DNA from: Membranipora membranacea
Lineage: Eukaryota; Bryozoa; Gymnolaemata; Cheilostomatida; Membraniporidae
NCBI GenBank assembly: GCA_914767715.1
Contig: OU612067.1
Span: 33,080,162 to 33,144,161 of the forward strand
Length of the DNA stretch: 64,000 nucleotides
Direction: 5' to 3'
Shown here: positions 148 to 24,023 of the stretch, in pieces
How the letters are laid out: each line of letters opens with the position of its first letter
Numbering within the stretch: position 1 is the stretch's first letter
The notes under the pieces: model-generated
The model's database searches: none
Seen by the model: only the letters and a program-made list of their open reading frames with translations
Told to the model about the DNA's origin: nothing
Made by a program: the position numbers and the translations under genes

Positions 148-155
148 GGCGGCTT
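148..155. repeat. Left 8-bp target-site duplication (GGCGGCTT)
   Basis: The 8-mer immediately precedes the CATGGG terminus of the left inverted repeat and is repeated exactly at 24016-24023. Because CATG also follows the right copy, the shared direct repeat is slightly longer than 8 bp. Starting the element at CATG gives symmetrical ends and the 8-bp length expected for P elements. Confidence 0.85.
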
Positions 156-705
156 CATGGGCCCCTGGGACTTACATGTCTTTACTTTGCCAATGTCCAC
201 TAACAACCACCCAAAAAACACCAAACAGGGTAAGACACAAAAAAAAATTTGTTACAACCTACCTTGAAATCTCTCGCACTAACTCAGCCCTCCTTCCTCT
301 TTCATTTGCTTCAGGTTTGAAGGTTCTAGCACAAACAGAGCTGAATTTATAGACCAGAGGAAAATATACTTGTACAAAATTCACAAAAACCTGAATGGCA
401 GAAAGGTCAGCACAAGACTGCAGTTAATGCTCACAATCCAACATGATTATTGTACAATTTTTTTTTATTGCACTGAATTGCTTCTTTTTACACTCATATA
501 TGATTTCTTAATTATATTCAGTCTTTTAATGCTCCTAATAAACTATTATTTTTTTAATAATCATAGTTTCCTTCTGATTTTGTACTTTTATACAATAAAA
601 GAAGTTGGTAAACTAGTCTCAAAATAATTTTATAGAATCCCGACACTAAGCGCTCCCGTTGGCTGAATTCGTCACATGACCATACACACATTCTTTGGGA
701 AATCC
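156..705 (+). repeat. Left long terminal inverted repeat of the giant P element
   Basis: About 550 bp that match 23474-24015 in inverted orientation with roughly 15 substitutions and a few indels, including about 8 bp near 610 present only here. The arm begins CATGGGCCCCTGGGACTTAC and ends near GGGAAATCC at 697-705. The short open frames within it look non-coding. A roughly 30-bp subterminal stretch around ACTTTGCCAATGTCCAC recurs at 956-985 and 6470-6530. Confidence 0.9.
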
Positions 706-955
706 CTGTTTGGAGACCAGCAATTCACTCAGTCTTTACACTTTCAGAACAGCACATGGATACTATCAAATTAAGCAGTTCCAAAGAAGGTTTTAATTAA
801 CTGGCAGTGCAGCCCTAGCAACACTACATCATATAAAACTAGTAGTTCATCGTAATCTGTACATGGTCTTCTTTTCTTAAAACTAAACAAGTGAGTACTT
901 TTCTTATCAGCATATACAAACCAGACTGCAGCCTTGACTGAGAGTTCAGTCTTCA
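706..955. other. Internal region next to the left arm, no gene seen
   Basis: This 250-bp stretch lies between the left inverted repeat and a foldback sequence. Short open frames exist on the minus strand but show no family resemblance or codon structure. I see nothing else in it. Confidence 0.4.
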
Positions 956-1017
956 CTTTGCCAATGTCCAGTATCAACCACCAAAAAATGGTGGTTTGAT
1001 ACTGGACAATGGCAAGG
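956..1017. repeat. Foldback related to the P-element subterminal sequence
   Basis: A nearly perfect hairpin with arms of about 28 bp separated by five or six A residues. The left arm reads CTTTGCCAATGTCCAGTATC and closely matches the subterminal part of the giant P element's inverted repeat. It resembles two P-type ends joined back to back without the outermost CATG part. It sits directly beside the 3' tail of the LINE remnant at 1142-2590. Confidence 0.6.
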
Positions 1018-1141
1018 ATTGGTTTATTTTGTTTGTTTGTTTAATTTATGACTTCTCATCCGAGAATGCTTACATAATAAAAGTGGTGTGCTTTCAAAAA
1101 GCCCCTCTAAAAATATATGAACAAAAATAAAATAAATCATT

Positions 1142-2590
1142 TCAAACGGCATAAAACTCAGGATTGGCAAAAATTCCACATTTTCTCTTCTCAGTTCGAC
1201 ATTTAGGCATACTAATGGTGCCCTCAGAGTTTCGGGTTGAGCGTCTGAGTCTGGTTTTATTGAGCGGAAGTCGATTGTGTAGGGGATGGTTATCGTCAGA
1301 TAAAATACGATATACGTATTTGTGGCATATGCCGTTTAGTAAGTCATTTAGTGGTAGCAAATTCGCAGCTGCAAGTCGATCATCATAGTGTTCGAGGTCA
1401 GAGAAAATAATCCTCATAGCAAGCCGCTGACATCTCTCAATATCATTCCTCAGACATTCGGTGGCGTAAGGGTACCAAGCACCTGCAGCGTGGGTGATAG
1501 CTGCGACTACTTGGGTTTTGTACATTAGTACTAGGCTTTTTTGGTTTACTCCGGACTGTTTTAATACGAGCAGACCGTGACATCTTTTGTTCGCTGACTT
1601 AGTGATGTTAGCCACATGCTCATTGAATCGTAGATGTTGGTCGATGGTAAGACCGAGTAGTTTGGTAGAAGCTACGTTGTCTACGTTGTATGATTGCTTC
1701 ATTGTGAGAGTTTTCAACATTATCATCTGTTTCTTAAGAGAAAGGTTCAATGTCTTAGTTTTTGTAGCATTCAGTAGCATTTCGTTGTCGTGCGCCCATT
1801 TAGTACATTCATCGATAAGCTGCTGACTGACGGGTGGAGGTTCAAACTTGACAGCGTTGTAAGTATTGCTTATTATTTGAAGATCAGCTTTCTGGAGAGA
1901 CAGGTAGTTGGTTGTGTCATCAGCGTATTTCACAGTGCTGGCAGTGGAGAATTGAAGCGAATCAACAAACGCCAACCATAGAGTAGGTCCACACAAGGTC
2001 CCTTGTGGAACGCCTATGTTGGAAGATGCAGTGTGAGATTTCACTTGGTGCTGATGAATCACTACTTGTTGTTTTCTGTTTTCTAGATAACTCGCGACTA
2101 AAGCCACAAGGGCGTTTGGGAGCTCAAACTGTCCTAACTTTTGTAGAAGAAGAGTGTGATTCATAAGGTCAAAGGCCTTGCTGAAATCATATAATATCAT
2201 CTGGGCCCCGATGTTGTTACAATTGTCCATGGCCTTGGTGACGTCATCTAGAACGCTAACAAGAGCATCTGTGCATCCTACACCCGGCATATAGGCAAAC
2301 TGGTTGCCTTGCAGCTTGGGGAGGATATGGGTACGGATTCGTCTGTTTATGAAGTTTTCAGCAACTTTACCTACATGCCATAGAAGAGATATTGGGCGAT
2401 AGTCTTTACAAGTGGATGGAGAGTTTGTTTTAGCTATCGGTATAACTTCTGCAGTTTTGTAGAGTGCTGGGAACTTTGCTTCTCTTTGTGAATGCTTGAT
2501 TATATCGGCTATCGGTACACAGAGGTCTTCGTGACATAGTTTGCTTATCCAGGGAGGATAATCTTTACTGTGGACGGACTGGAAGGACAC
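1142..2590 (-). pseudogene. CR1-like LINE reverse transcriptase, 5'-truncated
   Basis: This open frame of 482 residues is the C-terminal half of a LINE ORF2. It shows the fingers motif YRPISLL (about residue 65), the palm aspartate in YDFSKAFD, the NIGVPQGTLCGP motif and the catalytic box KYADDTT, followed by the thumb and a C-terminal tail ending in a cysteine-containing segment (SMPKCRTEKRKC). The endonuclease half is missing, as is usual for copies cut short during target-primed reverse transcription. Downstream on the minus strand is an AAAC-rich tail at about 1025-1056, consistent with the LINE 3' end. The tail segment PKCRT.KR is shared with the LINE at 45135-47910, so both belong to related families. 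It inserted into the giant P element after that element arrived. The frame itself is uninterrupted. Confidence 0.85.
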
Positions 2591-2619
2591 AAATATAAAG
2601 TATGCTGCCAGACTTGAGG

Positions 2620-3115
2620 GGAGTTACTAAAGAGAATCGTTCATGAAATCTTCACCATCATGTATGAGCTGCGACACAAAAGTTCTGGTACATTTTGCAA
2701 TGACAGAATCTAGATATCAAATATTGTGTAAACTAGTCTGTCACTCTGTTTGAACAATTGTCTCAGAGCTTTCTTATCTCGTGAATAAATATGATTATAC
2801 AAAATAGGTGGGCAATAGGTGAGAATTGATACAATAAAACGTTTGACTAACACTCAGACTAAAGGCTTTGTACAGAAAAGTTCTGATGATAAAAATCCTC
2901 TGGACTTGCTTAGGTTACAACTTTGTTTACACAACTGTCGAAGCATAATTTTCGTATCTTATTTAGTGGAGAAAAGTATCTTTCGTGTCTTTGTAGGATT
3001 AAGGAATAAGTTTTTCACATCGACTAGAAATGCTTTCGATCTCATTGAAATAATTTGACAACTCATTATAATCAGAAATACAGCCAGCCATGTCATCAGC
3101 ATATTTCAAAATTCT
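2620..3115 (-). pseudogene. Degenerate LINE reverse-transcriptase remnant, different family
   Basis: Read on the minus strand, 3000-3112 gives a catalytic box LKYADDM followed by the spacing expected of a LINE palm. After a small frameshift comes an N-P-T-K-T stretch (about 2960-3010), which corresponds to the conserved region after the YADD box where LINEs read L.N..KTK. Further 3' only patchy resemblance remains, with many stops. The sequence differs from the neighbouring LINE at 1142-2590, so it looks like an independent, older insertion. It lies just upstream of the first helicase exon. Boundaries are approximate. Confidence 0.5.
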
Positions 3116-3652
3116 CTGGAGGATAAATCACCAAGTCATTGGCATATTTATTCATTTCTAGAAACTGATAATGAACACAGAGCAGCAGGCAGCATTGGAT
3201 ATGGCGCTATCTGGCCACAGCTTTTTACTAACTGGAAAAGCAGGTAGTTATCCTTATTTCTCATATCAGATTACTAGTGTCACACAATCAGCAACCGCGG
3301 TTTCTGGATAAACCTTAAATTCTAATGCAGTATCAAAGAAAATTGTCTATAATAAATGTTACTGTGTAGTTTAGCCGCTGTTAACCAAGGTGAATCACCC
3401 TTTAACTCTATAGGTAAAGCCGTTCAGAGCTTTATAACAAGGGAGTTCCCCTTGATTATACTCCTTGATTTAAGATCATTATTTAATCCATACTGAGGGC
3501 GGATTATAGATAATCTTTCGGTTGAACATTACATTAAAAAAGTGATATAAAGGTTTTCACAATAATATAGATTTAATAACCTGCGGATAAGGTAGCCCAA
3601 TTTATTCCTAACCATTTTTAATCCTTTGTCTACATATCGTTTCTTGATTTAG

Positions 3653-3827
3653 GGACAGGGAAAACCTATACACTAGGAAAGATTGTAGAGGGGATGGTTC
3701 ACAGAAACCCTCCAACTCCAGAACTCTTAATTTGCGGAGCTACAGGGTTGAGCAGCGTCGCGCTGAAGGGGAAGCTTACTGAGACTGTGACTACCTTACA
3801 TTCAGCATTTTGTCTGATGGACGGAAG
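3653..3827 (+). CDS. Helicase exon 2: P-loop (Walker A)
   Basis: The acceptor is GATTTAG and the donor is GTAAGT. Joined to the exon ending at 3243, phase 1 restores the P-loop GKAGTGKT. The exon then runs through TYTLGKIVEG to LICGATGLSS and TVTTLHSAF, the segment that in PIF1 proteins contains motif Ia (T.H..F). It ends in phase 2 and is continued by 4110-4178. Confidence 0.75.
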
Positions 3828-4911
3828 GTAAGTTGTCATTCAGTGATAGTTCTATTTTCTGGTTCTAAATCTGGTTTTTGCTATCTCATAGGTCTTGACT
3901 GATTATTTTGAGAATCCAAGAGCAGCATCTGCAATCTTGAGTTAAATGTCAAACAGAGCACATAGATTTGCCAATTGTGTCATATATTAGTTTCCAACTC
4001 TGCCAAATAGTGTATCATTAATCAGCCTTTCCAATAATCTCCCAAATGGAACTATTGCTGACTTGTGTAGCACACAAGCTCATAGTACTCAATGCTGATC
4101 TGCCTACAGGTTCTCTGCAGATCGCCTCGTAGAACTCTTCATGGGTGAAGACGAATACTATATAGAACGAAGAGAAAGGTGTGTAGATATTTTATTTGAT
4201 AAACCTTTATATTAAATCGGAGATCCCTACTGCTGACTCATATTTACAAGCACACAATTTTGATCTTCCCATAAATTTATTGATAATCTAAGCTTGTATT
4301 ATTGTCAGTTTGTCTACAAGACGTTTACCAGTCACCACAAATGATGCCAGTAAATGTAACTGGAAACCACAGACACAGCATATAATCTGAGGTGTTTCCT
4401 TTTGATATCTTTATTATGTAATTCTTTTACTCAAATTGGATTGCCGAAAAATCCAGACAATGGCCTTGCTCCTGTTTGATTTGATAAATCATGAGGATTT
4501 TTCTGGTCATTCCATTAAGTCATTATGTATGAGTTGTCAGCAAGTGACAACAGGTTATCATCACACAGAGTAAGGATATACAGAGGGATACTTCTATGAT
4601 AGCTATAGAGCCTGTGATATTGTCACCACAAATTATGCCTGTAAATGTAACTGGAAAACTTTAATATGTAATTCTTAATCTCAAATTGGATTGCCGAAAA
4701 AATCCAGACACTGACTTTGCTCCTGTTTGATTTGATAAAATATGAGGATTTTTCTGGTCGTTCCATTACGTCATTATGTATGAGTGGTCAGCAAGTGACA
4801 ACAGGACTGGTTATCATCACACAGAGTAAGGATATAGAGAGGGACGCTTCAATGATAGTTATAGTGCCCGTGATTTTGAATTGAATTCTTTACTTTTTTT
4901 GGTAATTTTAG

Positions 4912-5164
4912 GTTGAGGAAGGCAGATGTTCTCATTATTGATGAGATATCGATGATCAGCTCCCACACACTAAATGTAATACACACCCTGCTACAAGTTG
5001 TAAAAAAAAACAAGCTGGTAATGGGAGGTATTCAGAGGATATTTTGTGGCGACTTTCTTGAGCTCCCTCCGATCGCCAATTCTAGGTCTGATGATGTTGG
5101 AGAACCTTGTGTTTTGTCGCCTGAGTTTGAAAAATGCATGCCGCATAAAATCATTTTGGAACAG
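4912..5164 (+). CDS. Helicase exon 4: Walker B and motif III
   Basis: The exon opens after a TTTTAG acceptor and closes at a GTAAGA donor. It encodes RKADVLIIDEISMI (Walker B with the DE pair that activates ATP hydrolysis), then FCGDFLELPPI, a motif III variant of the PIF1 signature GDFLQLPP. The reading frame is intact. The length of 253 bp and its phase agree with the flanking exons. Confidence 0.8.
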
Positions 5165-6453
5165 GTAAGATTCTTAGCCCTAGCGCTGAAAGGCTTCATC
5201 AAAAACCAAGACTTCTTGGTAAATCTCCTTCATCTGATCAATCAATTATTTTCCTTATTTTTTGTCTGGTCAAAACTTATGTTATTTTTTTACTTTTGGC
5301 GCCAAAGTGTCAATAAATCAAAAAGTGATAGGTGCTGTGTTTGTTGCTGTCACCACAAATCATAGAAATCTTCACTTTTTTACCATAACAGAGGGGACAA
5401 TTTGTGAGAACTTTGTGATGGAGCCCTTCAACATTGTGACCCTCCCTGGTGAGACATTATATAAATGTGTCCAGTGTCATCTCAATATTATATCTATATC
5501 AATAATTATGCATTACCATTGATTTCTTCAGATTCGACGAACTTCAGATGCAGTTCTCTCAAGATCAATCTCAGAGATAAGTGAGGGTATATGCTCTGAT
5601 GAGACACTCCATTTCATTGAAGCATGTAACCAGCCACTCAAAGTTCCAGATGGTAAGAATTTAACAGTTTGCCTCTTGTCAGAAAAGCTGTATGCATAAC
5701 CAGTATGGCACTGTAGTATGCAGACTCTACATGCGCTGATACAATAAAACGTTTCCATGCAAATTACATTACCCATTTACCTATCAGGGGGAGTGTTGAA
5801 ATACACGGCTAAATATAACTGACCTGAATTTAAAATAACTCGGAATTCTAGGCGGCCTGTCGCCAGCCTTTTATATCTTATGTCACAACAAACAATTACT
5901 GTTATCATACACTGGTGGAGGGATGTGTCAATACTTTTTTGTCAATCATATGATTCCTTTTTATACATGTGCCTAATTCCAATCGGTATCTTAGCTAATA
6001 TCTTCAGTCGTGTTGAATTTGGCTTTACATATTGAGATATGTGTTAATTCTTGTGCGTCATGAAGAGAAGTTCAGACGATTCAACAATAACCCAAAAAAA
6101 AGCTATTCCATATCGATGCTGGAAACAGATGTTAACATTGATTATATACGCACAAAAATAGCATCAGGTGCTGTGTTGTGTTATTGGTAAATCCGGTTGT
6201 GCATGGATAGCGCTTGCATCATAGACTTTATTATTGCGAAATTAGAATTGGTCATTTTAGAGCACTACTAGTCGTTTTCTGAAAATTCAAATCGTATCGC
6301 TATGAAAATTGCTTGCATGTCATTTCTGTAGCAATGAGTGGAAAATTGATCTGTCAAAAACACATCATTTTAATTTACAACTAGGGCTAGCTAATTTTTG
6401 CCACCATCTTAGATGTGTCCTGTCTCTCTTACTCATTTGTTACACACTCGGTG

Positions 6454-6539
6454 CATGGGCCCATGGGACTTACATGTCTTTACTTTGCCAATGTCCACTG
6501 GTTGATAGTGGATATTGGCAAAGTAAAGACATGTAAGTG
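6454..6539. mobile_element. 86-bp P-type mini-element with its own 8-bp duplication
   Basis: The sequence begins CATGGGCCCATGGGACTTAC, like the giant element, and is almost entirely a palindrome centred on CACTGGTTGATAGTG. It is flanked exactly by ACTCGGTG at 6446-6453 and 6540-6547, an 8-bp target duplication. The right end lacks the mirror of the outer CATGGGCCCATGGGA and stops at CATGTAAGTG, so the ends are unequal. It is a MITE-like derivative mobilised by P-type transposase, lying in an intron of the helicase gene. Confidence 0.75.
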
Positions 6540-7093
6540 ACTCGGTGGGCTAATTTTTTACTGTGTAGTACTGGTTACTGGCATGATTTATTATTACATT
6601 ATGTACAAGTAGCCTGTGGAAAAACAATTGCAGGTAAAACCATTTGCCAATGCTTGATTTATAGTAGCATTTTACACAATTTTCAGATCCTAATTTTTTT
6701 ATACCGAAATTTAGGAGTTTATGATTTGTAATTTTGGCCAATCAGTCGTTAAATCTAGCAGTCCCGAAGTGTGGAATGCGGTTGAGATATTGGCTTTTTT
6801 CAATGGGCAAACACGCAAAACTTTTACTTCTACCGATAGAGAAATTACCTGCAAGTGAAATATATTGTGCTGCGTTGCATGAAATATGTTTTGAAAAAAC
6901 AACTCTCTGGTGTTTTGGTCAATACACCGCTGAGTACGTGGTTTGAGGCCCATCCTGGCCAGAATTTTACCATGTCAACTCTGGCTGCCAGTGCCAACAA
7001 AATCTTATCCTAACCAAAAATCATTTCTAAAGACTAAGATAGAGAAATCACACAGGACAACTATGGTAGTAATTAAATTGTTTTCTCTTCCAG

Positions 7094-7240
7094 ATCAGAA
7101 ACTTGTGCTCTACAGCCAGAGAATAAATGTAGACATGCACAATGCTGAGTGCTTATGGAGGTTGCATGGTCAGCTACAGATTTATGAATCGCAGGATACT
7201 GTCGACAAGTCAGGATTTCCAGCATATGCTAGCTGAGAAG
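7094..7240 (+). CDS. Helicase exon 6: VD-HN segment, frameshifted
   Basis: The acceptor is TTCTCTTCCAG and the donor GTGAGT. The exon encodes the segment in which PIF1 proteins read a R..VD.HN motif, here RINVDMHNAECLWRLHG, followed by IYESQDT. A single-base shift in the TTT run near 7217 introduces a stop; past it the frame FQHMLAEK leads correctly into the next exon. The shift shows the gene is decayed. Confidence 0.6.
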
Positions 7241-7832
7241 GTGAGTAATATGTAAAACTTCTGTCTATACTTTTGAAAAATCTGATGTACTGCTGGCGAA
7301 GCCCAAGACAGTGTCCAGGCAATCGCTGCTGGAAACATGTATGGTATGATATGTAAATTGACTTCATTCATCATGCGATTGTGAGTGATTATCCTCAGTA
7401 CCATTTGTGAAAAATGATCCCCAAACACAGCTCCAAGGTCATAACTGGTCCCAGGTTTATCCCCAACTCTTGATAAAGCTTTTAATCATAGAGAGAAAAA
7501 CATCCTATGTGGCATGCATATGTCATTATGGATTTACAGACCTGGAATTTTTACTATATAAATTTGTATTTCTTTGCTCTTGATGTAATGGAATAATTGC
7601 ATACATCCAACTCCCAGCAGCTACATAGTTTCGATGTTGGTGCATGTTTTCTTTGTTTACTGAACAAAATAACCATCCTGATTCTCAGTAGATGAGCAAT
7701 CCAACAATATAAACACATATATCCTCTGTGATTTATACAATTTTATTCCTGTCAGATCATTTGAAGCCATGGTGCTGCTCAAAAGAAAATGTGATAATAC
7801 ATCATTTTACTTGTTTTCTCAACTTGGGCACA

Positions 7833-7862
7833 ATTGGCACAGCTGGCACAGCTGGCACAGCT
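7833..7862. repeat. Short 9-bp tandem repeat
   Basis: About three copies of GGCACAGCT occur in a row inside a helicase intron. A nearby segment (7885-7950) repeats CTTGCATCAAG-like words several times. Both look like simple slippage repeats without known function. Confidence 0.6.
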
Positions 7863-8092
7863 ATGTATCTTTGAGAACAGTAGCTTGCATCAACTCCTTG
7901 CTTGCATCAAGGAGTTTGAAAACTGATTGTAACTCCCTGCTTGCATCAAGCAATGAAATCCCTGGAGCTAGTTCATTACATCAATTGTCTTTGTCCACTG
8001 TCGATTGCATGATGTAATTATTAACACCCGTAAATCTTAGATAAACATTCTGCACAGGATTTAGTATCAGTGTATTCCTAATTGATATCAAA

Positions 8093-8160
8093 GCCCACAT
8101 AGCTCAGTTGTTAAGTTGTTCATCCCAGCGGAAGAAACCCCAGTTCACTTCTGGCCAAAG
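8093..8160 (+). repeat. Possible decayed tRNA-derived SINE head
   Basis: The stretch TAGCTCAGTTGTTAAGTTG resembles a tRNA A box, and about 40 bases later CCCAGTTCACTTCTGG resembles a B box. The spacing is close to that of a tRNA. Cloverleaf pairing is imperfect and the copy sits in a helicase intron, so it is most likely a worn SINE rather than a tRNA gene. The 3' part has no recognisable tail. Confidence 0.3.
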
Positions 8161-8398
8161 GCAGTTTTTTTTATAAAAAGATATAAACTTCATAATGTGC
8201 TGGAACACTTTGATTGTACCCCCCTTCCAGCCAGCCTTGTAATGCAGCTGCAAAAAAAAACTTGCCACATGACAAGACCTTCCAGGCTGCTCCCATTTTT
8301 CAAACAACAGTAAAGTGCAAAGGCCATAATATCCATATCCTGTCATGCCAATCAGTACCATGACTAATGTATGTACTATAATATTTCTATTTCTTTAG

Positions 8399-8565
8399 AG
8401 ACTAATGCTGAAGGTTGGCGCACTGGTTATGCTGATAAAAAATCTTTCTGATACGCTGGTGAATGGGCTCCGAGGAAAAGTTGCAAAATTAAAACAAGAA
8501 GAGGTGATAGTTCACTTCCCAAGTCTCTCCAGGAGTCATACATTTAAGGCTGAAAGGTTTACCAG
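8399..8565 (+). CDS. Helicase exon 7: 2B/SH3-like region
   Basis: The exon follows a TTCTTTAG acceptor and ends at a GTTAGC donor. It encodes LKVGALVMLIKNL and LVNGLRGKV, the conserved block of PIF1-like and RecD-like helicases in which L..GA.VM...N is followed by NG..G.V. The frame is open and the exon fits its neighbours in phase. Confidence 0.75.
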
Positions 8566-8873
8566 GTTAGCTTTTTGCTCTCATAATACCACAACAAAAC
8601 CAAACCTCATCAGAATATACCAAGAACCATGCTGAAAAATCATAATAGGTGCAATCTATTATTGTGAAGTTGGGTATCAGTACTGTCGATTATATGTAAG
8701 GTCGGAGTTGCATGCACATTACATAGGTTATGATAACTATGAAGCTGTGGTCAATGAGGAAAATGCAGCAGAATGAGTTGTAAATACTGTTGGTAGCCAA
8801 AGACCACATATTGTTCAAGTACAAACAACAGATGATCTGAGAGAAAGTTATTCAATTTTGTTTATACTTTTAG

Positions 8874-9951
8874 GTATGACCATATCCATAAGTAGGAGAT
8901 CTCAAGGAACCAAATACCCCTTCTACTGTGTTACGCCACAACAGTTCACAAGTCACAAGGCCTGTCAGCTGACTATGTTGAAGTACATGCAGAAGATATG
9001 TTGTACCCCGCATTATTGGCTGTAGCTGTCAGCAGAGTGACAAGTCGTTCTGGCCTTTATGTGACAGGTTTCTCCAGGAAGTCAGTTCTGAAGCCAGCAG
9101 AGACGCTTCTCAACGCCATGAGCAATCCGGGGCAACCTGTTTCCATTTCGTTATTTGAATGCTGTCAGACAGAATTTGACATCTCTGATGACTATGGTTT
9201 TACGGACAGCGAAGATGAAGAGTTTATGTTTTCAGACAAAAGCCAAGTTCCCGAAAACCCTCAGCCATCAACTTCGAATATGTCAACCTCATCCCCTAAT
9301 TCCGTTATTATCAAGGATCTCCTTCTTAAACAGACAATTCTTGCTCCTGTAAGACAAGAGCAACAACTTATCAATCAGGAAGTTTTTTATCTAAAGAATG
9401 ATATTGACTTCAACGGCATCCACTCCTATCTCAACCAACGGCTGAATGCTTTCTATACAGACGCTATAGCTAACAAAATCAAACCAGACAATGCTGCAAA
9501 TGGAATCATATTCAGCAGCCTTTCCAAGCATATAAACGAGTTTTTAGACAAGGAACTAACCTCTTACCTGCAATAAGAATCTCTACCTGAGAAGTATCAT
9601 AATTACATTAGGCAGATGATGGGGGACATGATGACAGATCTGTTCGAAGCGGAAGCTGCCAAGGCTGGAACTGAGGCTATAGCTGTCCCATACAGCTTCG
9701 AACAATTTCACATTTCATCTGATGCTGGGAGAGGTGTGATAAGAAGAGTAGGTGGCAGAGCAGTATATTTGGCAATCAAAGAACAGACAAAAAAGATCAG
9801 CACCCTTGTCAAAAAAAACCAAACCCTGAGCCCTGAGTACAAGGATCTGAAACGTACAATCAAATGCCTGCAAGCCATGAAGGCTTCGGAAGAGGAAGTT
9901 CTCTTGGGAAAATACCCGGAAACATCAGCTGAGACCTCCAAGGAGAAATAG
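8874..9951 (+). pseudogene. Helicase last exon: motifs V/VI plus long C-terminal extension
   Basis: One continuous frame runs from the acceptor at 8872-8873 to a TAG ending at 9951, broken by TAG at 8893-8895 and TAA at 9574-9576. The first part encodes ATTVHKSQG (motif V) and VAVSRVTS (motif VI), ending the PIF1 core near residue 75 of the exon. The rest, about 280 residues, is an extension not found in minimal PIF1 proteins. It has an acidic, serine-rich linker with SEDEEF (9208-9225) and then helical, lysine- and glutamate-rich sequence. I do not recognise the extension. Its preserved frame across 1 kb suggests it was translated. Confidence 0.65.
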
Positions 9952-9977
9952 GCGAAACATCAATATTATGCAAATTT

Positions 9978-10325
9978 CAGATGAGGTTTATGAGTATTTT
10001 CATGTGTTAGAAAAAAGCCGTGATGCCTGCCATACCGTAGGTGAATGCCTCTTGCATGGTGATGAGGTCACCAAAAACACACCATTCGCTTCTTTTGAAT
10101 ATTGAGATAGAGCAGAAGTTGCAGGATGCGATGCCAGGTGCTGACCAGATACTGCTGGAAAAAATGAACAAACTCTTGATTAAGAAATACCTGCCTGTGG
10201 GCAATAATCAGTATAGAAAAACTCTCGTTACGCACTTTGAGAAGTGCAAAAAAGCTTTCATTTTTTCGCACTGCTACCTTAATATAATTTATTTCGTGTT
10301 AGTCAACCATATATATCTCTTTTAA
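9978..10325 (+). pseudogene. Frameshifted coding remnant between helicase tail and PHD exon
   Basis: After the TAG near 9951 the reading moves between two frames. About 9966-10103 reads ISDEVYEYFHVLEKSRDAC onward, and about 10095-10255 continues in another frame with a lysine- and leucine-rich helical stretch. Both have coding-like composition and no intervening stop within their own part, so this is probably a continuation of the helicase extension broken by indels. An AG acceptor follows at 10332-10333. I recognise no domain here. Confidence 0.4.
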
Positions 10326-10333
10326 ACATACAG

Positions 10334-10588
10334 AAAACCACAGGGGGTGCTCCACAAAAGGCCAAGGATGAAGATGAGGAATGCAGGTCTAGATCATGTG
10401 TTGTGCGCAGATCTAAGAAAGCAGCTGAGTATGACTGGATTTGTTGTGATTACTGTGAGGAGTGGTATCATGTGGTGTGCACCAGCTTGGATAAGGGCTT
10501 GAGGACAGATGAGATTGAAAAACTGACATGGTACTGCATCTTTTGCGACCAGGATACCAGCAACAAGGTTGGGCTGAAAATAATATAA
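10334..10588 (+). CDS. PHD-finger exon in the giant P element
   Basis: After a CATACAG acceptor the exon encodes an acidic, basic-patched lead-in and then a PHD zinc finger of the C4-H-C3 type. The ligands are visible: C-X4-C in CRSRSC, CCDYC, the histidine and cysteine in WYHVVC, and the final pair in WYCIFC. The tryptophan before the last cysteine pair is typical. PHD fingers commonly read histone H3 tails, which could guide target choice or chromatin association, but that is inference. It lies on the same strand as, and 380 bp after, the helicase extension, so it may be the last part of the same protein. The frame is open up to a TAA at 10588. Confidence 0.75.
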   Translation, partial: KTTGGAPQKAKDEDEECRSRSCVVRRSKKAAEYDWICCDYCEEWYHVVCTSLDKGLRTDEIEKLTWYCIFCDQDTSNKVGLKII

Positions 10589-11202
10589 CTTTGCTTGCTC
10601 AGACATAAGATCATGTTACACAGAACTTGTACTCACAGGATAGGCAGAACATCTTGAATGAAAATTTGAATATCGGGCTATTCAGTGATTGATCTGAATT
10701 GCCTGGAGACAATCCTGTGCCCTACATGATATTTTATCCTGTAATGCCCTACAGCAATGATTGAACTGAGAAGGATTTCTGGATATCTCTACAAGAAAAG
10801 TAAGATGAGAGGCCCCCCCCCCCCAAACCTTTTTGTAGAGCTGGTTAAGTCTGATGCTGAGTTATTTTCCACTTTGGTTTGATTCAGTAATTGTGTTCTC
10901 TTTGTATCTCTTCATTGAAAACCTAGTTAAAATGGCATGTGAATCTTATTTGCCGTAACAGCTCATCCCATAGCTGAAATTATATGAATTACCTACACAT
11001 GTGTGATGGCAAAAATCAAGGTTGAATGGGTGTCAGTGATGCAAATCATACCTCAAATTACCAACATAAGACTGCTAGTCTACCTGTTAGAACTGTTACA
11101 GCTCGTCTATCTATTAATGTCCTTAATTCATTTTGGCTTGTGTCTCAATGTTAGCTGGCACCTAATTTTGGCTAGCTGAGGTCTGTATAAAGTAAAGAGG
11201 GC
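10589..11202. other. No gene seen; C-run and BEL insertion site
   Basis: This 0.6-kb stretch separates the PHD exon from the BEL 5' LTR. It holds a run of C residues near 10811-10823 and AT-rich sequence with scattered stops in all frames. The last five bases, AGGGC (11198-11202), are the left target duplication of the BEL element. Confidence 0.5.
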
Positions 11203-11853
11203 TGTGGCTGCTTCACGGCGGCTTAGATCCTTTGCCATTCACTGGGAGTTGTGCCTAATTGGCCATAGCTGCATGGCTTTGTGCGGTACCGGGCTATTGT
11301 GTTGTGTGTCCAATTATCTGTACTGATGGATTAATTTGGCGAGAAAATTCCTCAAGCCTTTAGTTGCCCTGTGAGCCTTGGTGTTTGAGGTTTTCCTCAC
11401 AGGCTCAGTAAACTTGAGTTGTATAAACTTGAACAATATTTATCTATTTTTCTGGGCTAAGGTAATATTTGGGGATTTACTAAAGGAGCAAAAAGGTATG
11501 TTATAAATTAAATTCTATTTTCTGTAGATTGAAATAATTTGACTCCAAGTTCACTTGACTTAATATCTCTTTTATTTCTCGGTACATTCAAAATTAATTA
11601 ATAGGGTTTAGATTTGTGTTTATTTGATCTTTGAGTATATTGTTCCTTATAGTTTGCGTTAAATTGAATGGTTAATTATTGACGGCATTTTTATTGAACG
11701 AGGCACATTTTTATGCACCACATTAATTGCACCATGTTCTTTTCCAGTTTCACGGAACCTTCGGGGATAAAAATAAACCTGTGATCCTGTGATACCATCA
11801 GTAATCTCTAAAATCTAATGCAAAATAATCAAGAAGCCTTGTGGTCCCGAACA
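11203..11853 (+). repeat. BEL element 5' LTR
   Basis: The LTR runs from TGTGGCTGCTTCACGG to GAACA and matches 18024-18674 over its full 651 bp. The leader 11854-12597 follows without recognisable coding sequence. Confidence 0.95.
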
Positions 11854-12597
11854 GTGAAACTTTATTTCTGGATAATGTCTAGTGCTAGAAGCTGACTCAA
11901 CACTCTCGCCAACCCACACACCAACCATTGAGCAACTCACTCCAGCGTCTACACTATCTTGACGCCTACTCTACCAGTCAGCTTGTGATGCTGTACAGTT
12001 ATACCTCAGCTAGCCGAGCATTCAGCTCCCTCAACATACTCTGTACGTCAACATCAGAGAGCCACAGGATTCGTACTGCTATACCACCTAAATCCTGTAC
12101 TGCTAGCACAGCACACCTAAGCACTAGTCTCTAGATACAGCTGTCGTTATACCCCGCTGTATCCTCTCGTCTTGTGTGACGACTACCCCCTTCTCGTCTA
12201 CGCCACGTTACTCTACTGCCGGTGATCTCGCTGCTGATGCTTGCTAAACACTAACTGTAACTGTATATGATAACCTCTTGGATTATTTATTAATCCACCC
12301 TGTTGCTGATGGAGAGCTGCTGGAGATACTTTTTACACTTCACTGATACCAGGTGCGTGCCTCGTTAATTTTTACAGCCGTCAATTTTTTGTACTAGGAC
12401 TAGGTTAGGGCTTTTTGTGCAAGCTCGCCTTTTTCATCCAATAGTGCAGATTTTTTGGCTCATGCACTCTAGTTGCTGGGCTGTACTCCGTTGTGTGGTC
12501 TTGGTTGTTGGGTATTGATTTCAGTGTGTGTCTTGGTATCTTGCCTCTGTGGAGCAGTTGTGTTTCTTGCCAATAATCTTTGTAGGTTTGTCTCAGC
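11854..12597 (+). other. BEL element leader, no gene
   Basis: This 744-bp untranslated leader lies between the 5' LTR and the first gag start codon. The primer-binding site should lie just after 11853, but I do not recognise a matching tRNA 3' end. Confidence 0.6.
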
Positions 12598-12870
12598 ATG
12601 GAGGGCTTTAGTATCTCAAGGTCAGAGCCCGATAGGTTGGGGGCAAAGGCGCTCAGGGATATGTTGAAATCAAAGAAATTACCGGTTGGTGGCAGAAAGA
12701 AAGTGCTTATTGATAGAATTATTCAAAACTCCTCACGGTTTCGAATCGATTCAACAGGAGGTGATTTTGAAATGGCATCTCAATCTAGATTTTTTCCTGC
12801 TGCTCATAGCACTGACCAACAAGCCAAAGTATTTTCATCAGGCATTGTACAAGTGAATCAAGGCTCATGA
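12598..12870 (+). pseudogene. BEL Gag N-terminus with SAP-like domain
   Basis: The ATG at 12598 starts a frame whose residues about 13-45 match the SAP motif pattern: LGAKALRDMLKSKKLPVGG followed by RKKVLIDRI, two helices with the conserved G and K-L-I spacing. SAP domains bind DNA or chromatin, and an N-terminal one on a retrotransposon Gag could help nuclear association (inference). A frameshift near 12860 ends the frame in TGA. The next frame continues with glutamine- and asparagine-rich sequence, has a TAG near 13028, and leads into the ORF at 13070. Confidence 0.65.
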
Positions 12871-13069
12871 AATTCAGCAACCAGCATCACAACATGATGT
12901 TAGGGGTCGGCAGCAATCTGATAATGGTTGCAAAGACCAACAGATGCCTGGTGGTAATGATTATAATGATCAACATGTGCAACAAGGTCAAAATCATAGG
13001 CCGCCCAATGGTAGTGTAAATGGCGAATAGCAGCAAAATCAAGTAGGATCAAATCAATCTGCCGCGCCC

Positions 13070-15055
13070 ATGGATTTTACATGCCAGCAAGATGGTAGGA
13101 TAAGCATGCATATTTTTCCATCCAATGCTATTCATCAAAACAATGGAAACAATGGATGGCTTTTGAATGGTCAAGCTGTGTCATCGGGACACTCGTTTCA
13201 GGCTAATCAACCCAGACCAGCTTTAGCTTCCACCAGTAACAATGAATGGCTTATTCGTGACTCAAGTAATTTAGCTTCAGCTATTCATGATGGACCAGTA
13301 AATAACAATGGGTGGCTATCCAATAGACAAGCTCAATCTAGGAGTAACATGCATGGTCGTAATAATGCTGCTCATGATACACAGACTGTAGCTTCCACTG
13401 CTGTTGCAGCAGCTGTCAATAGTAACCCATGGTTGTCACATGTTAGTATTGCTGTACCTTCGCATGGTGTTCACTTTAGCTCACCTCCACATGACATTCG
13501 CAGACCACCATCCCCTATCATGGACTTGCATCAAAGTCGTATATCACCCCAGTTAACCGAACCAAACTGGCATTCTAGTACATATGTAGTAGGGGACACA
13601 ACTCCAAATATAGAATCAGATTATGCTATGTCACGTAGACAGGAGTTGGATTATGCCATCGCAGAGTCAATAGAGGCTAGTAAAATGCCTCTGGAGGAGC
13701 CATCAGTATTTCAGGGTGATTTGCTCAAGTACAATCGCTGGGCCAAGTCATTTGATGCTTTTATATCTAAGCGAAAATGGCCAACATCAAGTTCTAAGCT
13801 TTTCTACCTGGAAAAGTACACTGATGGTGATGCTAGAGAGCTAATCGAGCATTATCTAACCAGAAATTCTGAGCAAGCATATATCGAGGCATGGAAAGAC
13901 CTCAATCAGACATATGGTAATTCTTATCTCATTGCACAGGCATACAAGAAAAAACTGTTTACCTGGCCAAAAATCACAAACAGAGATAATGTCAGTATCA
14001 AAAAGCTGGCAAATTTTCTCAAGCAATGCCTAGCAATGAGAGAAGAAAACCCACACTTTGGATTTTTGGAGGAGTGTGATCGTAATCAGGACATAGTCAA
14101 GAATCTTCCTGATTATATGGCATTACGGTGGAACAATAAAGTAACAGGGTATCAACTATCTCATGATCAGGTGTTCCCACCGTTCTCTCAGTTTGTTGAG
14201 TTCATGGTTTTTGAATCCCACTCAGCAAACAATCCAGTTACTTCCCAGAATGCTTTGAAGGGTGTGGGTAATGTGGATTCATCAGCTAAGAGTGATCAAT
14301 TGAAACCTAAATCAAAATCTAACCAAAGTGCCGACAGTCAATCAATTTCACAGGATGATCTGAAATTTCTCAAAATTCTAGATGATGGTATTCAACAAGA
14401 CAGCTCAGGTTACTATGTCATGCCTTTACCGTTTAAACATGGTGAGACAACTTTCACATCTAGTAAACAACCAGTCTTGAAGAGATTTTATGGTCTTTTA
14501 TCACAGTTCAAAAGGCGAAATGCAGAATTCAGACAGAAATATACTGAGTTCGTAGAAGGTATAATATCTAGGGGTGAGGCTGAACTAGTGCCAAAATCAG
14601 AACTCGAAAGCCGGGAGGGTTGGTTTTTACCTCATCATGGTGTTTATCATAAAAAGACCGGAAAAATCAGAGTCTTATTTGACTGTGGTGCGCAGGCTAA
14701 TGGTGTCAACCTGAATGATGAGTTATTACAAGGCCCTGACCTAAACAATTCTCTGCTGGGAGTGATATTGAGATTTCGGCAAAAACCAGTAGCTTTATCT
14801 TGTGACATAGAGAAGATGTATCATCGCTTCAGGGTAGTAAACGAGCACCGTGATTATCTTCGGTTCTTTTGGCTTGATGATCAGGGTAATCCAGCTGTAT
14901 ATAGAATGTGCGTCCATATTTTTGGCGCTAGATCGTCTCCCAACTGTGCCAAATATGGTCTCAATAGGCTAGCAATAGACTATGGTGAAAATTACCCACT
15001 AGCTCAGGAGTTTATTCAGCGTAATTTCTATGTTGACGATGGTTTATGTATGTAA
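13070..15055 (+). pseudogene. BEL Gag (DUF1759-like) fused to reverse transcriptase
   Basis: Residues 1-190 are low complexity and asparagine- and serine-rich. Residues about 210-380 match the Gag capsid region of BEL/Pao elements (DUF1759 type), starting near FQGDLLKYNRWAKSFDAF. From about residue 450 the frame enters the reverse transcriptase, with LSCDIEKMYH (motif A aspartate), FGARSSP (motif B) and FYVDDG (motif C). Only about 70 residues separate capsid from polymerase. The CCHC zinc knuckles and the aspartic protease that normally lie there are missing, evidently through an internal in-frame deletion. The frame ends early at TAA 15053-15055 because of a small deletion just after the YVDD box, and 15046-16308 carries on. 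Confidence 0.85.
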
Positions 15056-16308
15056 ATACCAGTGATGAAGCCATCGAACTTCTGAAACAAACTAGGTCAT
15101 TGTGTAAAAATGGCAATCTTCATGTACACAAGCTTCTATCCAATCAACCTCAGGTACTGGAAGCCTTCCCTCAAGAGGATACAAATCTCAAACCACAGAA
15201 AAATATTCAGCTGCTCGACTCAACAGAGCGAGCTCTAGGCATGCTATGGGCCTTGGACTCGGATTCATTCACTTATAAATATCAGCCTGTACCTGCTAAG
15301 AAAATTACTAGGAGGTCTGTGTTAGCTAATGTAGCTTCGGTATACGATCCTATGGGTCTCATAAGTCTTCTTATTCTGCCAGCTAGAGTAATGATACAAA
15401 ACTCATGTAAAGACGGTTTGAGTTGGGACCAGGAACTTGATCAAAACATGTGTGATAAGTGGAAAATCTGGGACTTCGAAATCTCCAAAATCTCCAGTCT
15501 GTCCGTTTCCAGGTGTATTCACCCACACTCGTTCATGCCAGTCAAACAAGAAATCCATACATTCGCAGATGCTAGCGAGCTAGGGTATGGAGCATGCTCA
15601 TATGTTAGGACATTTGATGAAAATAATGCTGTACATTGTAGTCTAATGCTAGGAAAAACTCATGTGGCTCCGTTAAAGAAGCGTATTACCATTCCTAGGC
15701 TAGAGTTACAAGCAGCATTACTAGCTGCTAAGCAATGTAATTCTCTCAAAACTGAACTAGGCATACAGTGTGATAGTTATCTCTGGTCAGACTCAAAAAT
15801 CGTCTTAGGCTATATCAATAATGACTCGAAACGGTTCCAAACATTTGTTGCGAATCGTGTGACTCAAATCAATGAAATCTCGTCGAAATCCCAATGGGAT
15901 TATGTGAATACTAGTTTGAATCCTGCAGATATTGCATCCCGTGGATTAAGCACAGTAGAATTCCTGAACAATTCTATGTGGTTTCATGGACCCAACTTTC
16001 TGTGGGAGACCGATCCATTACCTAGCTCAAACTGTTCATTTATTGTTGATCCTGATGACTTGGAGCTGAAAAAATCAGCTGTCACTCTAGCTACTGACTC
16101 AAAATCACTGTCAGGGTTTGATGAAATAGTTTTGGGTTTGGTGAATAAATCATCATCATGGAATAAAACTGTCAGATGTGTAGCCATGTTACAAAATATC
16201 AAGTCAAACCATTCATTTGATGGGTGCGGGAAGGTTGTCTGCTCAGCATACCCAGAATGCATCAAACTACATCATTTCGCTAGTCCAGAGTCTCAGCTAT
16301 CAGAATGA
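15046..16308 (+). pseudogene. BEL reverse-transcriptase thumb and RNase H
   Basis: This frame continues the polymerase after the frameshift. Residues 1-170 are the RT thumb and connection, including SVYDPMGL, a phrase conserved in BEL/Pao polymerases. RNase H follows with the acidic residues visible in TFADASELG, RLELQAA, WSDSKIV and NPADIASRG, the complete set expected for an active site. The last part leads toward the integrase but loses frame near 16265-16300. The first ATG is not a true start; the part is translated only as Gag-Pol. Confidence 0.85.
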
Positions 16309-17605
16309 AATTCAATCACTCCAGTCAGGGTGTGCAATCGATAAATCTAGTCCATTAGGGAGAATGGATTGCTTCGTTGATAGTGATGATCTGTTACAAG
16401 TGGGTGGTAGAGTAAAACTGTCGTCTCTGTCATTAGCAGACAAGCATCCCATTGTCATACCAAAACAGTCAAATCTCAGTAAACAGATTTTGCAGCATTA
16501 TCATGAACAAGTAGCTCACCAGGGACGTACTTCTACCATGTCAGCTGTGAGGTCTGCTGGATTTTGGGTGGTTGGTTTGAGTAATGCGGTCTCATCTGTG
16601 ATTTACACAAGCTCATTTTGTCGTCGACTCAGGAGGCCAGTAGAAAGTCAGAAAATGGCAGACCTCCCACCTGAGCGTGTTGAAGTCGTTCCCCCATTCA
16701 CACATGTAGGATGTGATGTTTTTGGCCCCTTTCCCATAAAAGATGGTCGAAAACACATGAAGAAGTATGGTCTAATAATCACATGCTTGTCCAGTAGAGC
16801 TGTACATATTGAAACTCTACTCTCTACTGACTGCTTCTTGCAGAGCTGGCGCTGCTTTGTGGCTCTAAGAGGCAATGTCAGTTCTGTGCGTTGTGACAAT
16901 GGCACTAATTTTGTTGTTGCAAACAACGAAATTCTGAAACTCTATGATGAAATGTCTCAAGATAGTTCATTCAGTAAATATCTACAGGAACACCACTGTG
17001 AGTTTATTTTCAATACCCCTCACGCTAGTCATATGGGCGGGTGTTGGGAAAGAATGATTAGGACAATACGCTCTGTGTTCAATGGTTTGACACCACATAT
17101 GCATAACTTCAGTAGTACATCACTGCGTACTCTACTATATGAATGTATGGCAATCATTAACAGTCGCCCTCTGACGGATGTCAGCTCAGATTGTAAACCT
17201 TTATCACCGAATGATTTACTTCATATGAAGTCCTCTGTTATTCTACCTATGCCTGGTAATTTTGATGATGGCGACATCTATGCCAGAAAGAGATGGCGTG
17301 CAGTACAGCTGCTAGCCAATAAATTCTGGAATAGATGGCGTAAGGAATATGTGCAAAATCTTCAGCAGAGACAGAAATGGGTACAATCCAGAAGAAATCT
17401 CGCAATCAATGACATCGTTATTCTCAGTGATAACTGTGGTCGACGTTTTTGGAAACTAGGACGAATAACCAAAGTTTTATCTAGTGTAGATAATCTAGTC
17501 AGATCTGTCAAAGTTCTGCGTTATGATGTAATCAGTAACAATCACTCAACATTCACTCGCCCAGTTAACAAACTGGTGTGCCTAGTCGAATCTGAAGCTC
17601 TGTAA
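16217..17605 (+). pseudogene. BEL integrase
   Basis: The frame holds the zinc-binding N-terminus (HEQVAHQGR) whose second cysteine pair is damaged: only one cysteine remains in SSFCRRLRR where C-X2-C is usual. The catalytic core is intact, with D in HVGCDVFGPF, D in RCDNGTNF and E in MGGCWERMI. The C-terminal region KVGD-type fold (IVILSDNCGRRFWKLGRI) follows. Integrase joins the cDNA ends to host DNA and generated the flanking 5-bp duplication. Positions before about 16290 are out of frame with the preceding RNase H frame. Confidence 0.85.
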
Positions 17606-18023
17606 TAGGGATACAATGTAAATACTAGTCTTTTATCAGGACTCATGGAGGAGCAACTCCAAATTGTTGCTTTTTCATCCCACCCCATGGTGTTTATTTA
17701 TCACTTGTTAAGCTTTGCTCTGCTCTAAATCATTATTGTATTGCATTGCATTTGTTATCATTTCACACAGCGATAGGCACTTCTCAGTTGTATTTATTCT
17801 CGATAGTGCCAGTCGCTGCCTCAATAACTTGCCGTTTGTTAATTAATTTGTTTGCTCGATCAAACCTCTCGCATGTCAGTTTTTGTATTTATGATTGGGG
17901 TCGCTAAATGTTTGGAATGGAATGAGAAATATCCTAGGCTTCTTTTTCTCTTTCTGATCAGTTCTTCTTTGCGATCTTCAGTCATGGTTGATGGGAGAAA
18001 TCACAAGGTGATTTGGCCGGGAG
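17606..18023 (+). other. BEL 3' untranslated region, no gene
   Basis: This 0.4-kb stretch lies between the integrase stop and the 3' LTR. It has no coding features, and stops occur in all frames apart from a short open frame at 17852-18079 that runs into the LTR. Confidence 0.7.
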
Positions 18024-18674
18024 TGTGGCTGCTTCACGGCGGCTTAGATCCTTTGCCATTCACTGGGAGTTGTGCCTAATTGGCCATAGCTGCATGGCTT
18101 TGCGCGGTACCGGGCTATTGTGTTGTGTGTCCAATTATCTGTACTGATGGATTAATTTGGCGAGAAAAGTCCTCAAGCCTTTAGTTGCCCTGTGAGCCTT
18201 GGTGTTTGAGGTTTTCCTCACAGGCTCAGTAAACTTGAGTTGTATAAACTTGAACTATATTTATCTATTTTTCTGGGCAAAGGTAATATTTGGGGATTTA
18301 CTAAAGGAGCAAAAAGGTATGTTATAAATTAAATTCTATTTTCTGTAGATTAAAATAATTTGACTCCAAGTTCACTTGACTTAATATCTCTTTTATTTCT
18401 CGGTACATTCAAAATTAATTAATAGGGTTTAGATTTGTGTTTATTTGATCTTTGAGTATATTGTTCCTTATAGTTTGCGTTAAATTGAATAGTTAATTAT
18501 TGACGGCATTTTTATTGAACGAGGCACATTTTTATGCACCACATTAATTGCACCATGTTCTTTTCCAGTTTCACGGAACCTTCGGGGATAAAAATAAACC
18601 TGTGATCCTGTGATACCATCAGTAATCTCTAAAATCTAATGCAAAATAATCAAGAAGCCTTGTGGTCCAGAACA
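18024..18674 (+). repeat. BEL element 3' LTR
   Basis: This LTR has the same length as the 5' copy and about seven substitutions relative to it. It is preceded by a G-containing purine-rich tract (GGCCGGGAG) that may be part of the polypurine primer site, and is followed directly by the AGGGC duplication. Confidence 0.95.
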
Positions 18675-18811
18675 AGGGCGAGTTAATGTTTGCATAGCCT
18701 TTAATTTAGCCATTTCAAGTATTTATGAAAAGATAATTTTTCCTTCCTTCCTTCCAGGTATACAATATCCTCAAATCTACCTTGTGCCACATCACAATAT
18801 GGTCATTAGGA

Positions 18812-19322
18812 TTATGAACTATTGAGGAACCTGAACAGCGACTCTTTGGTCTTGTTTGGTGGCCTTGAAAAAGGCCGATTTGTGAAGGGAGTTACCAGAG
18901 GGCGGACTGACAGTCGACTCCGCTCACGCGCTGACACTCTGCGTAACTTCAGCTTCTTGATAGATATGGATTGGACATCAGTCATCTTCTTTTCTCTGAA
19001 CCCCTTATCAGCTAAGATGGTATACGGCTGAGCATGTCCAACAGCAGAGTCTGTGCCCGCATTCCTCTTCCTTGATCTCGTACAGTCCGTCGTCATGATG
19101 ATAGTGTTGATCGACTTGCTGTATGCTAGCACTGTTGGGTTGGTGTTGGCCCCATTACAGCGAGATCGCTGTGAAGAGAACATGTTCTCCATCACATCTG
19201 AGTTCAGCAGGCCTCCAACTACTCTGGCACCAGGGTATTGCTGTAAGATGAGTTTGATGGAATTCTCGAACGCAACTACAGTAGAGTTGAGATCATCATA
19301 GGCCTCCTTAGTGATGAACGTC
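18812..19322 (-). CDS. P-type transposase last exon
   Basis: The exon opens after a TTTTGCAG acceptor and ends at TAA 18812-18814. Its first third has the diagnostic S-D-V-M-E-N-M-F-S-S-Q-R-S-R-C segment followed by NTNPT, which matches the C-terminal catalytic block of P transposases (typically D..EN.F...R....NPT). The remainder is a basic tail rich in arginine and lysine (KKLKLRRVSARERSRL), a likely nuclear-localisation or DNA-contact region. Confidence 0.8.
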
Positions 19323-21698: not shown

Positions 21699-21933
21699 CT
21701 GAATCTGTATTTCATCAAATACAATAAAGCCGCTTCTGCCTCTCTTAGAAAGTCCTCTCCGGTCTGCTTCGAGGAGCATCCAGTGCAGGTTCTCTGCACA
21801 CAGTCCTGGACTTTGGTTGACAAAGTTCTTATACCTTGTAAGCTGCCTAGGGCTTGGTAGTTTGAGCACCTTTGCGAGGTTGAGGTAAGCTGTCGCTGAT
21901 CTAGTATAGAGATCCATAGCAATCTGGATAATG
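21699..21933 (-). CDS. P-type transposase core exon with first catalytic aspartate
   Basis: Bounded by TTTTAG and GTATTT, this exon encodes LKLPSPRQLTRYKNF, NQSPGLCAENLHWML and GFIVFDEIQIQ. These correspond to the start of the RNase H fold in P transposases, where the first catalytic residue sits in a V.DE sequence. The exon is open throughout. Confidence 0.8.
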
Positions 21934-22563
21934 CTAAAATAAGCAAAAAAGTAGTGTTAGAAGACACACCAGGAGAAAGTTTCTGACCAGGTAATATTTG
22001 ATGCTTCGCTATATTTAGTGTGAGGGATTTTCTGATGATACTCGTTTGTAGTTATTACTTGACTAGCAATGGTTCAAGCCTGTACCATATTGAATGCTAT
22101 ACACATAATCATGTTTGTTGCTGTGATAGGCGATTTTGTCATGTTGATTTTTACAGCATGAGATGGAACACAAAACACTGGAATACTATTTGACCATGCA
22201 GATGAGACAATTGGTGTCAACAAAGACAATCAGCTTCTGACAAAATCCAACAGTGATGTATGACTAGAGAAAACCATACCTTACTTCCCATCTTCTGAAC
22301 TTGCCAGAGTTTTCTAGCTGCTGTTGGAAAAACTCTATCCACACCTTGTCACTTTTTAAACTTTCTGGTAACAAACCAGACCATTCTGCTCTAGGGGGAG
22401 GAGTGCTGGGCGGGATTTCCTCTTCTTCTTCTTCATCGTCAGGTGTATAGGTAGGACCATGCTCATCTGGTGGCTGTTCTAGCTCAAAATCTACTGGAAT
22501 TGGCTCCCGTCTTTACTTACTGGGGGGTTTGTTGGTTAGCTCTCCTAGTGCTGGACGACTACA

Positions 22564-23473: not shown

Positions 23474-24015
23474 GGATTTCCCAAAGAATGTCTGTACGGT
23501 CATGTGACGAATTCAGCCAATGGGAGCGCTTAGTGTCGGAATTCTATAAAATTATTTTGAGACTAGACTTCTTTTATTGTATAAAAGTACGAAATCAGAA
23601 GGAAACTATGATTATTAAAAAAATAATAGTTTAATAGGAGCTTAAAAAGACTGAATATAATTAAGAAATCATATATGAGTGTAAAAAGAAGCAATTCAGT
23701 GCAATAAAAAAATTGTACAATAATCATGTTGGATTGTGAGCATTAACTGCAGTCTTGTGCTGACCTTTCTGCCATTCAGGTTTTTGTGAATTTTGTACAA
23801 GTATATTTTTCTCTGGTCCATAAAGTCAGCTCTGTTTGTGCTAGAACCTTCAAACCTGAAGCAAATGAAAGATGAAGGAGGGCTGAGTTAGTGTGAGAGA
23901 TTTCAAGGTAGGTTGTAACAAATATTTTTTTTGTGTCTTACCCTGTTTGGTGTTTCTTGGGTGGTTGATAGTGGACATTGGCAAAGTAAAGACATGTAAG
24001 TCCCAGGGGCCCATG
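23474..24015 (-). repeat. Right long terminal inverted repeat of the giant P element
   Basis: The arm is 542 bp, the inverted counterpart of 156-705, ending in CCCAGGGGCCCATG. The match includes internal A/T runs and the GACACTAAGCGCTCCC block near its inner end. The 8-bp duplication follows at once. Confidence 0.9.
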
Positions 24016-24023
24016 GGCGGCTT
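24016..24023. repeat. Right 8-bp target-site duplication (GGCGGCTT)
   Basis: Exact copy of 148-155 directly after the right terminus of the giant P element. Confidence 0.85.

Follow-up and report, generated by a model that had tools for sequence, protein, structure and literature searches.

The window analysed here, a stretch of 64,000 nucleotides from the bryozoan Membranipora membranacea (contig OU612067.1), holds a transposon of the P superfamily that carries, besides its transposase, a spliced gene for a PIF1 helicase with a PHD finger. Positions 156-24015 are a single P-type insertion, bounded by terminal inverted repeats (TIRs) of about 550 bp that start with CATGGGCCCCTG and form ends of the CATGGGCC type, with the 8-bp GGCGGCTT repeated perfectly at both flanks. 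From left to right, the element contains a fragment of a long interspersed element (LINE), the helicase-PHD gene, a Pao/BEL retrotransposon and the transposase. The helicase-PHD gene (+) and the transposase (-) are arranged tail to tail, with 747 bp between them once the Pao element is removed. Sister elements on C1 and C7 (6.14 Mb) have neither the LINE nor the Pao element, which identifies both as later insertions of the window copy. A preliminary description of this DNA had placed a spliced PIF1 helicase and a PHD finger between P-element ends, on the strand opposite to the transposase, and the domain matches, the TIRs and the 8-bp duplication bear this out.

The helicase-PHD gene and the transposase

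One gene model of eight exons and seven introns covers the helicase together with most of the extension that follows it, with GT/AG borders at all seven introns and the last acceptor AG at 8872-8873, immediately before exon 8; a splice donor was sought before the PHD exon and none was found. The composite helicase protein matches PF05970 at 63.3 bits (cut-off 25.9) and Pif1_2B (PF21530) at 38.2 bits (cut-off 23.9). Its PHD finger (PF00628) scores 26.3 bits (cut-off 24) when the frame of the PHD exon is scanned alone and 23.7 bits, slightly below that cut-off, within the composite protein. The solved chains nearest to it include the PHD fingers of PPS, ALFIN-like, KDM5 and Dido, and the Cys4-His-Cys3 ligands are present in six of eight genomic copies, with both of the subfamilies described below represented. 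The first spacing is Cx4C in the matched copies, and Cx2C or a variant in the relatives P0003, P0004 and P0007.

The extension between helicase and PHD finger, initially put at 280 residues, comes to about 420 when counted on the composite protein. PIF1, extension and PHD finger are all present in the relatives P0003, P0004 and P0129 and in a Mytilus edulis protein, and more relatives of the helicase and/or the extension come from Mercenaria, Ruditapes, Solemya and the acorn worms Glandiceps and Ptychodera. In tblastn, the extension reaches 53% with P0001 and 45% with P0002; since the homology of both begins near the start of exon 8, a shared intron position is suggested.

The transposase composite matches TNP-like_RNaseH_N (PF21787) at 45.6 bits (cut-off 24.6). 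Combined into a profile with eight database relatives, two of them from Branchiostoma, it matches 6p5a, the structure of the P transposase, at 2e-14, and the next solved chain reaches only 0.016. The protein keeps D, D and E and has the motifs FDE, MDGG and NSDVMEN, within which the catalytic residues presumably lie; its in-frame stop is at 20264-20266. The GTP-binding insertion domain PF21788 was matched only by P0121, at 19.2 bits and thus below the cut-off of 24.8, and was not found in the window composite. Neither P0121-P0128 nor the open frames scanned ahead of the transposase in the window, C1 and C10 copies gave a THAP domain, the first exons not having been located. Upstream of the C1 transposase, short open frames at L109:1326-1600, which match no Pfam family above cut-off, may include a missing N-terminal exon.

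Joint insertion of the two genes

The same genome (339 Mb in 18 contigs) yields 51 PF05970 matches, one of which is the window's own. Ten further PIF1 loci, chosen for matching the exon-4 part of the PIF1 profile, were fetched with about 10 kb on each side; together with the window, eleven of the 51 matches were covered. Several exons of the helicase gene occur in eight of these ten loci, and both genes, convergently arranged, in seven. Ends were sought only at loci already holding both genes, and five of the seven, in addition to the window element, were read to both ends.

All six complete elements carry both genes between inverted repeats of about 495-554 bp that are 95.5-99.8% alike, and all are flanked by perfect 8-bp duplications, every one different. 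Subfamily 1, with CATGGGCC ends, comprises the window element, the C1 element (15,863 bp, duplication GTTCTGGG) and the C7 element at 6.14 Mb (15,822 bp, GGGAGCAG). Subfamily 2, with CATAGGCA ends, comprises the C5 element (24,693 bp, GTAGCAGT), the C10 element at 4.50 Mb (24,765 bp, CTAATACT) and the C7 element at 10.49 Mb (23,691 bp, CTCTCATT). Two more copies, on C10 (4.35 Mb) and C7 (20.1 Mb), likewise hold the two genes, and by alignment they group with subfamily 2; no end pair was read in either, and for the C7 copy no subfamily-2 repeat was found in 24 kb. The features of the P superfamily found here are the 8-bp duplication in all six elements, a P-homologous transposase with D, D and E, and TIRs beginning with CA (CATGGG or CATAGG).

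The check suggested in the preliminary description, whether helicase and transposase co-occur between CATGGG ends, supports its interpretation. The two genes occur together in the seven loci and the six complete elements, with CATAGG ends in subfamily 2; the other three loci are two exon-4 fragments and one truncated twin. The latter is a tandem copy of the window element with the helicase part only, which matches window 1-9755 with 99.97% identity and stops at that point. This head-to-tail twin (G000:C3:33061989-33075955, about 14 kb, 99.97-99.98%) repeats the 4.2 kb before the window together with that part of it, and is either a segmental duplication that happened very recently or a duplicate introduced by the assembly. 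Beside the isolated exon-4 fragment on C5 stands a short fold-back with CATGGGCCCC ends (G000:C5:18893282-18893384), the 8-bp flanks of which differ.

The divergence of the two genes was compared as well. Six of the eight copies had both stretches (window excluded), and across their 15 pairs helicase and transposase distances correlate at r = 0.997, mostly because of the single two-subfamily split; both genes divide into the identical two subfamilies. Between the subfamilies, silent sites are saturated (proportion of silent differences, pS, 0.75-0.89) and replacement sites are not (proportion of replacement differences, pN, 0.23-0.42), which shows that purifying selection acted on both genes. 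The corresponding pN/pS values, upper limits because of this saturation, are 0.36-0.53 in the helicase (exons 4, 8 and PHD) and 0.28-0.33 in the transposase (three stretches). Within subfamilies, few changes separate the copies and the ratio of replacement to silent substitution rates (dN/dS) runs from 0 to 0.71, with values of 0.6-0.7 in two stretches when the window is compared with its sisters and in one stretch when C5 is compared with C7. For each stretch, a selection of at most seven pairs was compared, or a smaller number if copies lacked the stretch; window pairs are included for all stretches except the PHD stretch and transposase exon H, and the counts of stops take in intron sequence overhanging the exon edges.

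Taken together, six joint insertions with six different duplications, the identical subfamilies and the selection on both genes establish that helicase and transposase move together as one unit. Because the search for ends was confined to loci with both genes, the elements demonstrate that the pair inserts as a unit and give no frequency of either gene alone.

Table 1. Features of the window, with positions counted from its first nucleotide
Feature	Position	Strand	Remarks
Whole P-type element	156..24015	no strand	23,860 bp; about 16.4 kb minus the nested Pao element; limits from TIRs and 8-bp duplication
Left target-site duplication	148..155		GGCGGCTT
Left TIR	156..705	+	begins CATGGGCCCCTGGG
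Subterminal fold-back repeat of TIR sequence	949..1015		possibly a transposase-binding site (a guess)
LINE fragment	1033..2587	-	RVT_1 match; alignment break against C1 and C7 (6.14 Mb) sisters
Spliced PIF1 helicase-extension-PHD gene	3171..10588	+	broken in window copy
Exons of helicase gene	3171-3243, 3653-3827, 4110-4178, 4912-5164, 5532-5652, 7094-7240, 8399-8565, 8874-~9942 and on
PIF1 helicase core	3171..9070	+	from exon 1 into the beginning of exon 8; inner limit placed by eye; PF05970, Pif1_2B
86-bp fold-back built of the element's own ends	6454..6539		in helicase intron 5; flanks ACTCGGTG at 6446-6453 and 6540-6547; both ends complete in C1 and C7 sisters, window copy minus 14 nt at one end
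Extension	9071..10253	+	common to PIF1-PHD proteins of bivalves and others; tblastn, profile search
PHD finger exon	10334..10588	+	Cx4Cx15Cx2Cx4Hx2Cx18Cx2C; PF00628
Nested Pao/BEL retrotransposon with long terminal repeats	11203..18674	+	DUF1759 match; Pao/BEL name from open frames, by eye
Pao/BEL long terminal repeats	11203-11853 and 18024-18674		98.9% alike; duplication AGGGC
P-superfamily transposase	18812..22512	-	roughly 8 exons recognised, with a single in-frame stop; first exons not located
Right TIR	23474..24015	-	95.5% to left repeat over 551 columns
Right target-site duplication	24016..24023		GGCGGCTT
Mutator-like transposase fragment	28694-29080		PF20700, 58 bits
Second, strongly decayed P-transposase relic	43898-44417		matches P0122, P0123, P0127
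Apparent further LINE	45269-47860	-	by eye
Apparent second Pao-type retrotransposon coding region	52781-57912		by eye

Relation to known transposons

The Drosophila P element, THAP9 and zebrafish Pdre share with the elements described here the 8-bp duplications, ends starting with CAT (CATACC in Pdre2) and a TNP-like RNase H transposase in which D, D and E are present. They differ in that the bryozoan elements are 16-25 kb long, have inverted repeats of about 500 bp and carry PIF1-PHD as a second gene; in further contrast, no THAP domain was found here (first exons not located). Among the matches listed in the open-access literature, none is a P element carrying a helicase. A P-element family with a PIF1-PHD partner would be new, although helicase-bearing DDE transposons are already known from KolobokH.

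Galileo, also of the P superfamily, likewise has long terminal inverted repeats, of up to 1.2 kb, but makes 7-bp duplications, and a helicase mentioned in the paper on it is a host gene (PMC2775673). KolobokH is a DDE transposon that acquired a RecQ helicase and is found only in fungi; it resembles the present elements in this combination, as does Kolobok-1_CCri, in which the helicase lies on the complementary strand, and the term PHD is absent from the paper (PMC9587614). The proteins themselves are different, RecQ with a Kolobok transposase there and PIF1 with a P transposase here. RAG-like transposons (RAG1L-RAG2L) similarly place two convergent genes between inverted repeats, with a partner that ends in a PHD finger; the spacing of the window PHD finger falls within the invertebrate RAG2L pattern and that of subfamily 2 just outside it, at x17 against x14-16 (PMC7204232). 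RAG-like transposons, however, have a kelch protein in place of the helicase, a RAG1-like transposase and 5-bp duplications, and the likeness is one of layout, for which no homology is claimed.

Helitrons also have a PIF1-type helicase, but they move with a rolling-circle Rep to which the helicase is fused, and typically have neither inverted repeats nor duplications. The present elements have both, and no Rep domain is among the 25 of 28 families listed for the composite protein. Elsewhere in the genome, at G000:C2:27678022 and four similar places, PIF1 matches lie in open frames of 1,892-2,222 residues, which, judged by frame length, are probably Helitrons.

A possible role in donor-gap repair

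The P element is the textbook cut-and-paste transposon, the copies of which increase through host gap repair from the sister chromatid. In the reading explored here, the helicase-PHD gene belongs intrinsically to a family of giant P-superfamily transposons (16-25 kb) and serves donor-gap repair, with the PHD finger holding the machinery at chromatin; we consider this about as probable as its opposite. Specifically, the transposase would excise the element and leave a break at the donor site, where the PIF1 helicase would power long, processive DNA synthesis by D-loop migration, in a gap repair resembling break-induced replication (BIR) with the sister chromatid as template. Such synthesis would rebuild the 16-25-kb element, and cut-and-paste movement would thereby raise copy number. 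The PHD finger would bind the histone H3 tail and so tether either the machinery or the newly arriving element to open chromatin of the promoter type.

Several published observations form the background to this model. Drosophila PIF1 promotes BIR and, without POL32, is required for efficient repair of a P-element-induced gap (PMC8951532), and a part of PIF1 in BIR is described elsewhere as well (PMC8998199). P elements, which are 2.9 kb long, favour insertion around promoters and replication origins (PMC7776569). An element of 16-25 kb would rely on such synthesis more than they do. The PHD finger found here may bind H3: chromatin proteins are among its nearest solved relatives, and methylated H3K4 is bound by the PHD finger of sea-urchin RAG2L (PMC7204232). 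From these parallels, we infer gap-repair copying by the helicase and aiming by the PHD finger.

The helicase might instead be integral and serve transposition itself, through end opening, disassembly of the strand-transfer complex or target clearing, or else escape from silencing. The linkage and selection data fit this equally, yet Drosophila P elements are not known to carry a helicase of their own and still move. At forks and barriers, PIF1 helicases act in more than one way (PMC8998199), but the documented part of PIF1 in repair of P-element gaps suits repair better (PMC8951532), and we regard this alternative as somewhat doubtful.

Is the helicase then simply a host gene picked up by chance and merely carried along? 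Large DNA transposons do capture genes, and the window copy has decayed. In a maximum-likelihood tree of 24 helicases, however, a branch with support of 100/96 separates eight PIF1-PHD rows from five host-type PIF1 rows, with the window row inside a well-supported set of seven PIF1-PHD rows, and the gene has been kept in two subfamilies with saturated silent sites at the pN/pS values given above. Capture of a passenger is thus unlikely. That the helicase-PHD gene forms a mobile element of its own, lodged within the P element, is very improbable: PIF1 helicases are typical of Helitrons, Helraiser 7lcc matches the relative P0129 at 4e-14, the Pao element and the LINE are nested in the window element as well and two helicase exon fragments lack a transposase, but the introns argue against retrocopying, gene order and orientation are identical in two subfamilies, and no bounding inverted repeats of at least 13/14 were found around it in the stretches tested (0, as in each of 8 shuffles; shorter termini fall below this threshold).

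Several points weigh against an integral helicase serving donor-gap repair. The window copy of the element is dead, its helicase bearing at least five disabling lesions (a frameshift near 7220, TAG at 8893-8895, TAA at 9574-9576, and frame breaks at 9943-9973 and near 10080), and no fully intact copy emerged. The two C10 copies, which belong to subfamily 2, are free of stops across the exons aligned, but the alignment of their helicase shifts frame over 8 nt near residue 390. Constraint is weaker on the helicase than on the transposase, and the PHD ligand pattern is unmatched in two of eight copies. Two of the ten fetched loci (near C5:18.89 Mb and C8:7.05 Mb) consist of an exon-4 fragment only, with no transposase match among the matches listed, and the second P-transposase relic of the window, for which no inverted repeats were found in 30000-64000, has no convincing PIF1 match nearby. 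Finally, the sample is small, with six elements of two subfamilies in one genome, located via the helicase and with ends sought only beside both genes.

If donor-gap repair is indeed served by the helicase-PHD gene, a transposon with its own PIF1 would have taken over a repair step that was thought to be left to the host, and, as recently inserted copies exist (inverted repeats up to 99.8% alike), the idea is testable. More tentatively, and with the odds against it, a whole branch of the P superfamily across marine animals may have made gap repair part of its own life cycle, in which the transposase makes the cut, a PIF1 helicase dedicated to this step restores the 16-25-kb element at the donor site by copying, and the PHD finger ties the machinery to H3-marked chromatin. 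In that case, the relatives from Mytilus (PIF1 with PHD), Mercenaria, Ruditapes, Solemya and the acorn worms would belong to this branch, the layout of which, a transposase with a PHD-bearing partner, parallels RAG1-RAG2.

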